From assembly GCF_017571465.1 (NCBI RefSeq), contig NZ_JAGETV010000006.1, forward strand, positions 1 to 64,000: a DNA stretch of 64,000 nucleotides. Direction: 5' to 3'. A program made the position numbers and the translations under genes. Below, one piece after another: positions 50,993 to 55,929 of this stretch. Below the pieces are notes generated by a model, which did no database searches, was not told the origin of the DNA, and was given only the letters and a program-made list of their open reading frames with translations. Within the stretch, counting starts at the first letter, position 1. Every line of letters begins with the position of its first letter. The DNA is from Thiomicrorhabdus marina. GTDB lineage: Bacteria > Pseudomonadota > Gammaproteobacteria > Thiomicrospirales > Thiomicrospiraceae.

Positions 50993-51031
50993 TGGATAGT
51001 TCCTTTGCTTTTAAACATATCGCTAAATTCT

Positions 51032-51136
51032 ACTAGGTCGCGCTGCGAAAGATTTTGTTTATGTGATGCGTTGCTCATTTACTCTAATGTAAACAGAGCT
51101 ATACCTCGCTAAAAATCTTTTTCGCTGTGCTCTAGT
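51032..51136. repeat. Long imperfect inverted repeat between metK and metF
   Basis: Arms ACTAGGTCGCGCTGCGAAAG (from 51032) and CTTTTTCGCTGTGCTCTAGT (to 51136) pair over about 25 bp, with an inner hairpin TTTAC/GTAAA. It may be another MITE-like insertion or a processing hairpin. No T run follows on the minus strand, so it is not a standard terminator. Confidence 0.5.
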
Positions 51137-51197
51137 GAGTTTTGCAATATGTTTTTTAGTTTTGTTCAGTATGGTCAAGCCATGCTCTAGTGACTGA

Positions 51198-52358: not shown

Positions 52359-52427
52359 AACTGTTCCTCGGAAACGAAAACTTATAACGAGGTACGGAAA
52401 ATCAACGGGAGACAGGGATAGAGAAAA

Positions 52428-52490
52428 GCTCCTCGCTTTAGCCGTACTTATTTAATGCGCCCGCAAGCTGATGATCAAATCGGCGCTAAT
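52428..52490 (-). promoter_or_regulatory. SAM-II-like riboswitch in the metK leader
   Basis: On the minus strand the leader reads GCGCCGATTTGATCATCAGC, then TTGCGGGCGCATTAAATAAG, then TACGGCTAAAGCGAGGAGC. This follows the SAM-II layout: stem P1 (GCGCC with GGCGC), an L1 loop beginning GATTTGA, the GCTTGC turn, then ATTAAATAAGT and the invariant GCTAAAG, which docks on the loop. L1 TCATC can pair with the 3' GAGGA with one mismatch to form the P2 pseudoknot. SAM-II elements precede methionine and SAM genes, so it fits metK. I rely on remembered consensus. Confidence 0.7.
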
Positions 52491-52552
52491 CAGGTATTAT
52501 GGCATTTTTTTTTGCTGCCATCAATATTCGCTAATATTTGGTTATGTGGTGA

Positions 52553-54973
52553 TTAGTCGAAAATCTCGATAATCGGACGAGGATGGTCAAAGTAATAACC
52601 TTGTGCATAGTGTATGCCGACTTCCTTAAGCCAATTGGCGGTTTCTTGGTTCTCGACAAATTCTGCAATTGAGGAAATTTGCATTAGCTCAGAAATGTCT
52701 CGAATGGTCTGAACCATCACGGCATCGACTGGATCATTAAGTACGTCCTTAATAAAATCACCGTCGATTTTAACAAAGTCTACCGGTAGGTTTTTCAGCC
52801 AAGAGAAGGTCGCGAAACCGGAGCCGAAATCATCTAAAGCCAGTTTACAGCCGTAACTTTTGATTTTATTGAGGAAGTCAATGGTATGACTCATCTGGTT
52901 GATGGCAACGGTTTCGGTGATTTCAAAACAGATCTTGTGATTGTTTTCGAGGTTATTGTCAAGTAGTTCTAGTAAGTTACGGGTGAATTGTTCCTGGCCT
53001 AAAGATTGCCCAGAAATATTAATGTTTAGTAACTCAATTTTATCGCTATGTGCTTTAAGCCAGCGGATGGCGCGTTTGGTGATGTAGAGGTCTAAGTCTC
53101 TCATCAAATCAAAGCGTTCCGCCGCCGGTAAGAATTGGTTAGGGGTGATAATTTGAGAATCCTGATCTTTCATTCGAACCAGAATTTCAAAGCGTTGTAG
53201 TGGTTCATTACCGTTGCGGTTGAGGTCGATAATCTGCTGTGCAAAGAGTAAGAATCGGTTTTCGTCTAAGGCATAACGGATACGCCCAACCCAATCAATG
53301 ATGTTTTGGTCTTGCTGGCGGCTTTGGTCATCTTCTTGATAAGCTTCAATGCGATCTCGTCCCTTATCTTTTGCCAAGTAGCAGGCGATGTCGGCGCGCG
53401 ACAAAATCAACGCTTTGCTAAGATTGCCGTGAATTTGTGCGATACCGATACTGCTTCCGACTTGGAAGCGCTTGTTTTCCCAATAGAAACGATGTTGGCT
53501 AATACTATGTCGAAGTTTTTCGGCAAATGCTAAGGCTTCCTCCAGATCATGGTCATTTAACAGTATGGCGAATTCATCACCGCCGATTCTGGATAGAAAG
53601 CCGAAGTCTTCGGTTAGATGTGACAGCATGTTGGAAATTTGGCGTAATAAAACGTCGCCAGCAGTATGGCCGACGGTGTCATTGACAACTTTAAATTGAT
53701 CCAAGTCCAGATAAACCAGGCAACTATTATGTTGCGGGTTTTCGGCACTGATTTTAATTAACCTTTCTAGCTCAGTCTCGAAAGCGGTACGGTTGTGCAG
53801 TTCGGTCAATGTATCGTGAGTAGCTTGCCAACTAAGACGTTGTTGTAACGAGTGTTCTTCAGTCGCATCGCGGAATACCATGATTGCGCCGATAATATTG
53901 CCGTCTCGGTCGATAATCGGAGCGGCGGAATCGACTAGCGAAATCGTGTCGCCTAATCGGTTTATCAGAATCGTGTTTTTGCTTAAACCGATTACTTGCG
54001 CAGTACGCAATGCGCGTGTTCCGGGATTTTCCAGCGGTTTTTTGGTTCCTTCGTTAAACAGTTGCATGACCTCGTTAATAGGTTTGCCTGTGGCGAGATA
54101 ATGATCCCATGCGGTAATTTGTTCAGCGGCGGGGTTCATATAGGTAATGATGGATTGATTGTCAATAACCACTACGGCATCGCCGATGGAGCGTAAAGTG
54201 ATTTCGGCGCGTTCTTTCTCTTCGTAGAGGTCTTCTTCGTTTTGATTGAGTTGCGCTAGCATCGATTGGAAGTTGCGAGCAAGATCAGCCAGTTCGTCTT
54301 TACCATGGGTAGGAAATTCGATTTTACGTTCGCCTTGGCGAATGCGGCGAGTGTTGTCGATTAGTTTATAGATCCGGCTAGTTAAGTTAAAGCCCATATA
54401 CCATGCCAGTAGTGAACCGAGAATAATCGCAAAAGCGGTATAGAACAGACCTTCTTTGGTAATCACTTTAATGCTTTGGCTGGTGTTGGTTCGGCTGAGT
54501 TGAACTCGCGCCCAACCGAGTTGCGATTGATCTTTCCAGACCGGGATCGCGACATCTATGGCGTTACGGTCATTAAAGTAATAGTGTTCGCTACGTTGTG
54601 GATTAAATGGGTTTAGTTTTGGTAGTTCGATATATTTGCCGATATTTTCGCTGTGGTGTTGGTTATCGATATTGTTGTGGTAGGCGAGAATTTTGCCGTG
54701 GTTATTAACGAGCATAACAAAGTTGATATTAGCCTGATTAGCTTGTGCGGTAGCCAGTTCTTCCAGACCCGCTAAATCGTTAGAGAGCATCCACGGGATA
54801 CTATTCGCTGCCAGAGTTTTGACGATTCCTTGAGCGGCCATTTGTGATTCTTGAGTTAAAAACTCTTGCTGACGTTGCACTAAATCGAAGACGAACAGAG
54901 TCATCAGTAGCGCATGAATCAATGCGATACTGAGAATCAGTTTGTTTTTGATCGATTTAGGTATCAGCTTCAT
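52553..54973 (-). CDS. HAMP / PAS / GGDEF / EAL cyclic-di-GMP protein
   Basis: An 806-residue membrane protein: helix 1 (about 10-28), a periplasmic domain, helix 2 (about 178-198), HAMP (about 200-250), a PAS domain (about 255-375), GGDEF and EAL. The GGDEF motif is intact (RIGGDEFAILL). The EAL signature reads EIL in FEILVRM, but the later DDFGSG and KIDGDF residues remain. It lies 14 bp downstream of the PhnD-like lipoprotein gene, so the two likely form a sensor pair. Confidence 0.92.
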   Translation of the reverse strand: MKLIPKSIKNKLILSIALIHALLMTLFVFDLVQRQQEFLTQESQMAAQGIVKTLAANSIPWMLSNDLAGLEELATAQANQANINFVMLVNNHGKILAYHNNIDNQHHSENIGKYIELPKLNPFNPQRSEHYYFNDRNAIDVAIPVWKDQSQLGWARVQLSRTNTSQSIKVITKEGLFYTAFAIILGSLLAWYMGFNLTSRIYKLIDNTRRIRQGERKIEFPTHGKDELADLARNFQSMLAQLNQNEEDLYEEKERAEITLRSIGDAVVVIDNQSIITYMNPAAEQITAWDHYLATGKPINEVMQLFNEGTKKPLENPGTRALRTAQVIGLSKNTILINRLGDTISLVDSAAPIIDRDGNIIGAIMVFRDATEEHSLQQRLSWQATHDTLTELHNRTAFETELERLIKISAENPQHNSCLVYLDLDQFKVVNDTVGHTAGDVLLRQISNMLSHLTEDFGFLSRIGGDEFAILLNDHDLEEALAFAEKLRHSISQHRFYWENKRFQVGSSIGIAQIHGNLSKALILSRADIACYLAKDKGRDRIEAYQEDDQSRQQDQNIIDWVGRIRYALDENRFLLFAQQIIDLNRNGNEPLQRFEILVRMKDQDSQIITPNQFLPAAERFDLMRDLDLYITKRAIRWLKAHSDKIELLNINISGQSLGQEQFTRNLLELLDNNLENNHKICFEITETVAINQMSHTIDFLNKIKSYGCKLALDDFGSGFATFSWLKNLPVDFVKIDGDFIKDVLNDPVDAVMVQTIRDISELMQISSIAEFVENQETANWLKEVGIHYAQGYYFDHPRPIIEIFD

Positions 54974-54987
54974 AATCTCTGGTTGCT

Positions 54988-55929
54988 TTAGATTTCGTCT
55001 TGCGGGTTACGAACGGTTTTTTGAAAATCTTCAAGAAACTGTTTAACCGGTTCATAGCTCTGGTTATTTGCTATTTCAAATTTCGATAAATACATACCGG
55101 CCAAAATTTTGCGTCCTTGCTCGGATGTGTGCAAATTAGTGAGTAGATATTGCACCTGTTTACCGACATCGGTTGGAATATCGTCTCGAACAATAATCGC
55201 ATTGTTCGGCAAAGGATTGGTTTGCCACTGAACGCGAAGTTGTCGTTTAAGTTCAGGACGCTGTTGAGAAAGTAGCTCCCACGGTGGAGGCCAAGTTGCG
55301 GCAGCGTCTACTTCGCCATGAAAGACGTTCATAATGGATGACTCTTGCGAGCCGACATATTGATTGGTTAAATCGTGTTTAATATCTAAACCGTTCTGTT
55401 GTAAGAAATATTGAGGCAACATGGTTGCGGCCAGTGCGGTAGGTGCCGGATAACTAATGGTTTTGCCGCGTAGATCGCTGATTTTATTAATGCCGCTGTC
55501 TTTACGCACTAGGATAATGCCCCGAAAATTCTGATCGTCGCCCATCTTCGCAATGACGTGATAACGTTTGCTTTTAAGAGCGGTTACCGTCTGGTATGGA
55601 TTAGGCAATGCAAAATCGACGCTGGCTTGTGCCAGTTTTCGGTCAAAAGTTGGATAGTCTCGAGAGGCTTCAAGTCGAAAGTAGGCGTGCGGAATATGGT
55701 TATTGAGATATTCCATCAGTGGATTGAACACTTCGAATAAGCGCGAAGGATTGTGCAGAGGGTGCACGGCAAAGCTGTACTCCGCCTGTATAAATCGCGG
55801 TTTGTCGAGAGTTTTCGGTTGATAGTATTCAGGCGTGTCGCTCGTGCGTGAACAAGCCGTTAAACCGATAACCGCTGTAGCAAGTGTTCCAAGAAGGAGG
55901 CGGCGACTAAACCTTAGTGGTTGAGGCAT
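54988..55929 (-). CDS. PhnD-like periplasmic-binding lipoprotein
   Basis: A 313-residue substrate-binding protein of the phosphate/phosphite/phosphonate (PhnD) type with a basic signal (SRRLLLGTLATAV) and lipobox GLTAC (Cys 26). Landmarks are the FEVFNPLMEYLN and DFALPNPYQT segments, ISDLRGKTISYPAPTALAAT and GEVDAAATW. No ABC permease or ATPase is adjacent; instead the GGDEF/EAL gene follows. It should act as a sensor ligand-receptor rather than a transporter part. Confidence 0.9.
   Translation of the reverse strand: MPQPLRFSRRLLLGTLATAVIGLTACSRTSDTPEYYQPKTLDKPRFIQAEYSFAVHPLHNPSRLFEVFNPLMEYLNNHIPHAYFRLEASRDYPTFDRKLAQASVDFALPNPYQTVTALKSKRYHVIAKMGDDQNFRGIILVRKDSGINKISDLRGKTISYPAPTALAATMLPQYFLQQNGLDIKHDLTNQYVGSQESSIMNVFHGEVDAAATWPPPWELLSQQRPELKRQLRVQWQTNPLPNNAIIVRDDIPTDVGKQVQYLLTNLHTSEQGRKILAGMYLSKFEIANNQSYEPVKQFLEDFQKTVRNPQDEI

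Follow-up and report, generated by a model that had tools for sequence, protein, structure and literature searches.

The window, which is the whole stretch of 64,000 nucleotides analysed from Thiomicrorhabdus marina, contains a complete SAM-II aptamer on the minus strand directly 5' of metK (Table 1). Along the minus strand, the leader (UUAGCGCCGAUUUGAUCAUCAGCUUGCGGGCGCAUUAAAUAAGUACGGCUAAAGCGAGGAGC from position 52489) includes the P1 stem GCGCC:GGCGC, GAUUUGA, GCUUGC, the AUUAAAUAAGU linker and GCUAAAG in this order. The same blocks in the same order had been named in an earlier reading of the DNA letters (the sequence-only reading), and the span which it gave, 52428-52490, agrees with the match of the independent model R1 described below. 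Its estimate that the aptamer ends about 70 bases before the start codon is also borne out: the distance to the metK start codon is 77 bases from the end of GCUAAAG and about 70 bases from that of the proposed P2 strand. A promoter-like site precedes the aptamer, with 0.7 such sites expected in shuffles. Transcription from this site is expected to start some 7 bases further along, with the aptamer's first base. Boxes similar to -35 and -10 elements precede the aptamer in most relatives too, often ending 7-9 bases ahead of P1.

Table 1. Features of the metK locus, with positions in the window.
Feature	Position	Strand	Evidence
Sigma-70-type promoter-like site, TTGATG - 17 - CATAAT	52496..52524	-	9 of 12 matches
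SAM-II aptamer	52429..52489	-	RF00521 34.0 bits (52421-52496); R1 65.6 bits
P1 5' strand GCGCC	52482..52486	-	Family-invariant; covaries in wider SAM-II set
P1 3' strand GGCGC	52457..52461	-	Family-invariant; covaries in wider SAM-II set
Pseudoknot 5' strand CAGCUUGC	52463..52470	-	In 54/54 family aptamers; pairing with 52443-52429 per known SAM-II fold
GGCUAAAG, pseudoknot 3' strand and predicted SAM pocket (U and AAA)	52436..52443	-	In 54/54 family aptamers; Rfam consensus block
Anti-aptamer outer helix HA, 5' strand GUACGG, overlapping the aptamer	52442..52447	-	Fold, pair counts, RNAalifold
HA 3' strand CCGUAC	52392..52397	-	Pair counts, RNAalifold
Anti-aptamer inner helix HB, 5' strand GCGAGGAGC	52428..52436	-	MFE fold; pair counts, weak covariation
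HB 3' strand UCUCCCGUU	52404..52412	-	MFE fold; pair counts
Anti-Shine-Dalgarno CCUCG, one base in common with HA	52388..52392	-	Pair counts
Shine-Dalgarno region CGAGG, 7 bases before start codon	52366..52370	-	Fold, pair counts
metK, S-adenosylmethionine synthetase, 386 aa	51198..52358	-	PF00438, PF02772, PF02773

On the other side of metK, the 205-base gap between metK and metF (50993-51197, minus strand) contains two imperfect copies of a stretch with CACTAGAGCA. A GGDEF-EAL protein with cache, HAMP and PAS domains is encoded at 52553-54973 on the minus strand. Its gene is preceded by that of a phosphonate-binding-type periplasmic protein (54988-55929), and these two proteins are likely to be a sensor pair.

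The Rfam model RF00521 (SAM_alpha) matched the aptamer in a 321-base stretch with 34.0 bits and the E-value 3.3e-6. In the whole genome this site ranks first (E 6.8e-6), and the next-best place reaches 19.3 bits. The curated cut-off (gathering threshold) of this model, which is a database threshold and not a structural feature, is 36 bits, and nothing was reported at that strict setting. The clear hit that the sequence-only reading had expected was obtained as the top match of the genome, but 2 bits short of the cut-off. The independent model R1 was built from 22 aligned beta- and gammaproteobacterial aptamers that pass the cut-off, none of which comes from the window's family. With R1 the aptamer scores 65.6 bits in the window (E 2.5e-16; next place 14.1 bits) and has the E-value 1.1e-14 in the whole genome (next place 16.6 bits). 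The 22 aptamers show compensatory changes at three of the five P1 pairs, and P1 also covaries in a looser SAM-II collection gathered by DNA pattern. Because of the R1 scores and the compensatory P1 changes, the element is assigned to SAM-II despite the missed Rfam cut-off.

The core blocks GAUUUG, GCUUGC, UUAAA and GCUAAA are all present in the Rfam alignment of the aptamer, and GCUUGC is complementary to GCUAAAGC; these proposed P2 strands of the H-type pseudoknot are invariant across the window's family. The same alignment includes a four-base deletion in the alpha-type 3' region of the model. The shortfall looks like a matter of this region; other families have RNAs with an almost identical core that score 36-48 bits with RF00521. 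Neither the SAM/SAH riboswitch (RF01727) nor SAM-V (RF01826) was reported by cmscan from the 321-base stretch at E-values up to 10. The metK leader carries a real and very probably functional SAM-II riboswitch, of a class that is already known, and the earlier proposal of a SAM-II aptamer before metK in a gammaproteobacterium is supported.

In the window's family, the core was found before metK in 54 of 58 leaders; the four leaders lacking it all belong to genus g2. GAUUUG, GCUUGC and GCUAAA are present in all 54 aptamers. The core is identical across six genera while the loop and the linker vary, and P1 is invariant, so the stem is kept in relatives, a point on which the sequence-only reading had made its proposal depend. 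RF00521 at the E-value of 0.01 matched 48 of 63 family genomes versus none of 14 control genomes. In genome G018 (L032 and L049) some 270 additional bases separate the aptamer from metK. The metK of G018 may be uncoupled from its aptamer, because the conserved expression platform was not found in this longer leader. Self-complementary extra bases were recognized in the linker between P1 and GCUAAAG in G002 (L020), G036 (L079) and G062 (L083), as well as in Legionellaceae loci. The SAM-II fold seems to tolerate an extra hairpin at this position.

The stretch from the aptamer to the start codon is also conserved in the window's family. It comprises two anti-aptamer helices, HA (GUACGG:CCGUAC) and HB (GCG(A)GGAG with UCUCCCGU), followed by the CCUCG strand facing the Shine-Dalgarno CGAGG. 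When the window's leader is folded without constraints, HA and HB both form, and RNAalifold without guidance recovers P1 and four HA pairs. In a whole-leader MAFFT alignment the Shine-Dalgarno was off by one base in some rows, and the alignment was therefore re-anchored; one row (G033) still slips there but is handled by the pair counts, which were anchored on sequence motifs and not on complementarity. At each of the six HA positions, between 47 and 51 of the 51 leaders are paired, and the exchanges seen are A-U/G-C and G-C/G-U/A-U. Position 3 is A-U in 47 leaders and G-C in 4, and position 1 is G-C in 43, G-U in 3, A-U in 2 and mismatched in 3. The last anti-Shine-Dalgarno pair is G-C in 26 leaders, A-U in 10, G-U in 1, U-A in 1 and unpaired in 9, the nine all being from genus g5. 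None of 2000 shuffles matched this level of pairing. At the variable positions of HB, pairing is slightly above the shuffle expectation and is not decisive. Separate covariation pair counts agree with the motif-anchored counts. Covariation backs the platform modestly, and it amounts to few events since most pairs never vary. HA shares no more than one or two bases with the anti-Shine-Dalgarno helix, and in some folds the two can coexist (G061).

Three other arrangements of the leader were considered. A switch made by direct pairing between CCUCG and the CGAGG within the aptamer is not favoured: in G001, G012 and G016 the latter reads CGUGG, a change tolerated by HB, and in other genera the anti-Shine-Dalgarno follows the Shine-Dalgarno. 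An upstream metK start beside the GAGGAG of the aptamer was rejected by eye, with no suitably placed in-frame ATG, GTG or TTG. An intrinsic terminator was rejected as well: a scan of the window's leader found no terminator-like site, and no T-run after the CCUCG strand is conserved in the family.

Switching was modelled by folding the leaders at 25 C, with the aptamer strand withheld as a mimic of SAM binding; the pseudoknot and the timing of transcription lie outside this calculation. Opening the Shine-Dalgarno costs a median of 4.5 kcal/mol in the free leaders versus 7.5 kcal/mol with the aptamer strand withheld, and forbidding HA alone raises this cost to 6.9 kcal/mol. With shuffled platforms the cost moves only from 4.6 to 5.2 kcal/mol, and 41 of 47 leaders lie above the average of their own shuffles. 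For the window's own leader no switch is predicted (6.3 free versus 6.0 bound), because a second hairpin also covers the Shine-Dalgarno in the free state, and the shift is absent or small in several leaders of genus g6. Relatives with a strong predicted switch include G024 and G015. The modelled energies fit a SAM-dependent closing of the ribosome site in most relatives, not in the window's own sequence.

This SAM-II riboswitch is probably a SAM-dependent OFF switch that represses metK at high SAM levels, most likely by acting on translation. Transcription would begin at the aptamer. When SAM is scarce, the 3' strand of the aptamer (GUACGGCUAAAGCGAGGAGC) would pair with the downstream sequence through HA (GUACGG:CCGUAC) and HB (GCGAGG..:..UCCCGU). 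HA would then occupy part of the anti-Shine-Dalgarno strand, so that the ribosome site would open more easily. When SAM is bound, the aptamer pseudoknot would retain its 3' strand and CCGUACCUCG would be released. CCUCG could pair fully with the Shine-Dalgarno CGAGG, leaving metK untranslated. This mechanism is the best-supported reading, short of a demonstration. The analysis shows the aptamer, where it lies, how widely it is kept, and that complementarity is conserved in HA and in the anti-Shine-Dalgarno helix; that the aptamer binds SAM, in which direction it regulates and that it switches we infer. The question raised by the sequence-only reading, early termination or leader folding, is narrowed: no terminator-like site was found, and the conserved anti-Shine-Dalgarno points to translation.

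Most SAM-II riboswitches described so far act on transcription (PMC6061858, PMC2258182), and the SAM-II aptamers linked to metK in five other families are followed by terminators. The riboswitch of the window could likewise act mainly on transcription, if SAM frees the C-rich strand (UUUUCUCUAUCCCUGUCUCCCGUUGAUUUUCCGUACCUCG) as a place for Rho to bind, or if a weak intrinsic terminator forms. The freed strand is indeed pyrimidine-rich and G-poor. This is nevertheless unlikely, considering that the leader has no terminator-like site, that the family has no conserved T-run after CCUCG, and that such a mechanism has no need of a conserved complementarity to the Shine-Dalgarno. Somewhat less probable again is that the aptamer binds SAM while the downstream helices are a static damping of translation, and the switch works through RNA stability or a ribosome standby site at GAGGAG. 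The window's own leader, with no predicted switch and low Shine-Dalgarno accessibility in both states, agrees with such a static structure, and metA of Sinorhizobium shows unexpected behaviour of this kind (PMC9373788). However, HA keeps its overlap with the aptamer as well as with the anti-Shine-Dalgarno in different genera, and the effect is not seen with shuffled platforms.

The remaining two alternatives concern the aptamer itself. Other classes of SAM riboswitch include members whose ligand has changed (PMC10853860), and the score slightly under the Rfam cut-off would be compatible with a SAM-II relative that recognizes SAH or another sulfur metabolite. Such a change is very improbable here: all core blocks conserved in Rfam are intact in all 54 family aptamers, the downstream gene encodes SAM synthetase, and neither SAH hydrolase nor the SAH riboswitch is detectable in the window's family. 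A chance resemblance or a decayed remnant, for which the score below the curated cut-off could be cited, is already refuted by the whole-genome E-value with R1 and by a core that is the same in six genera despite a variable loop and linker.

SAM-II was surveyed with RF00521 in an even draw of 229 Gammaproteobacteria genomes at the E-value of 5e-4 or better. Matches were found in 71 genomes, 20 of them above the cut-off, so most of these matches are invisible to standard annotation. SAM-II stands directly before metK in eight genomes from five other families (G105, G141, G163, G183, G193, G245, G265 and G279), and by eye a terminator-like hairpin with a T-run follows all eight aptamers. Because terminators are found in these five families and none in the window's family, one gene and one aptamer type are combined with two kinds of platform. 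The genes that follow SAM-II members found by pattern include metX, metZ, metH, a gene similar to homoserine dehydrogenase (hom), a metN-like gene and metK, all of which are methionine/SAM genes. In betaproteobacterial loci, including L089, L094, L106 and L118, the SAM-II core precedes metX or metZ, often with a terminator-like hairpin. In Legionellaceae (L096, L103 and L152) the core precedes an ABC ATPase gene, which at L096 and L103 matches MetN best in NCBIfam, though with a score under the cut-off of that model. These three loci show no evident terminator, and HB-like GCGGG..CCCGC complementarity was recognized by eye. RF00521 matches at G071 2175401 and G035 300951 (E about 0.002-0.003) were taken as false positives, the core blocks being absent.

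These counts suggest a far wider occurrence of SAM-II among gamma- and betaproteobacteria than the name of its Rfam family implies. The uncommon setting proposed in the sequence-only reading is only partly right, given the 71 genomes, the eight metK cases in five other families and the Coxiella and Bordetella members described earlier (PMC1273637). The setting is thus more usual than supposed, and the chief interest lies in the proposed translational platform.

MetJ was not found in 25 genomes checked, 16 of them from the window's family, the SAH riboswitch was not found in 16 genomes of this family, and SAH hydrolase was not found in 8. Since none of the three was found, SAM-II is plausibly the main regulator of metK in the family, and it offers this lineage, where MetJ is undetected, a likely means of controlling metK. 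In other families, metK has the gene for SAH hydrolase, together with the riboswitch of that gene, as a neighbour. The chances are evenly balanced that the aptamer 3' strand, the anti-aptamer hairpin and the distant anti-Shine-Dalgarno form a family-wide SAM-II platform not recorded before, a translational metK switch in a lineage where MetJ, the SAH riboswitch and SAH hydrolase all went undetected, whereas families elsewhere in the Gammaproteobacteria combine the same aptamer and gene with terminators. The same aptamer and gene with two kinds of platform offer a natural system for studying platform exchange. A literature search found no paper joining Thiomicrorhabdus with riboswitches, nor, by exact wordings, one joining the SAM-II riboswitch, gammaproteobacteria and metK; it covered mostly journals outside subscription.

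Corbino 2005 already listed Coxiella and Bordetella among the SAM-II carriers, with promoters next to P1 and terminators behind (PMC1273637), and Barrick and Breaker 2007 described gammaproteobacterial cases as sporadic (PMC2258182). Leyn 2014 placed SAM_alpha only in Rhizobiales and Rhodobacterales, and for betaproteobacteria described a metXZ element as distinct from it, containing a pseudoknot and a terminator (PMC4239095). The betaproteobacterial loci found here have the SAM-II core before the same genes, often with a terminator. The metXZ element is probably SAM-II itself, and this orphan element is probably explained. The SAM/SAH riboswitch before Rhodobacterales metK (PMC4239095) is likewise a SAM-responsive control of metK in a proteobacterium, but it has another RNA fold. 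SAM-V has a very similar ligand pocket and pseudoknot and is translational (PMC6061858), but it hides the Shine-Dalgarno beside the aptamer's own helix. Neither was reported by cmscan from the window's leader. The metA SAM-II riboswitch of Sinorhizobium meliloti (PMC9373788) resembles the present one in that the used start codon is far from the aptamer and translational control is proposed, whereas the gene is different and a terminator lies between the aptamer and the used start codon. Compared with SAM-II of RF00521 (the "metA element"), the window's element has P1, GAUUUGA, GCUUGC, the linker and GCUAAAG in the same order, a promoter just before P1 and a methionine/SAM gene downstream. It differs in its predicted control of metK, in its score 2 bits below the Rfam cut-off, and in the aptamer 3' strand that leads, with no terminator, into a conserved anti-aptamer and anti-Shine-Dalgarno platform, perhaps a new platform variant.
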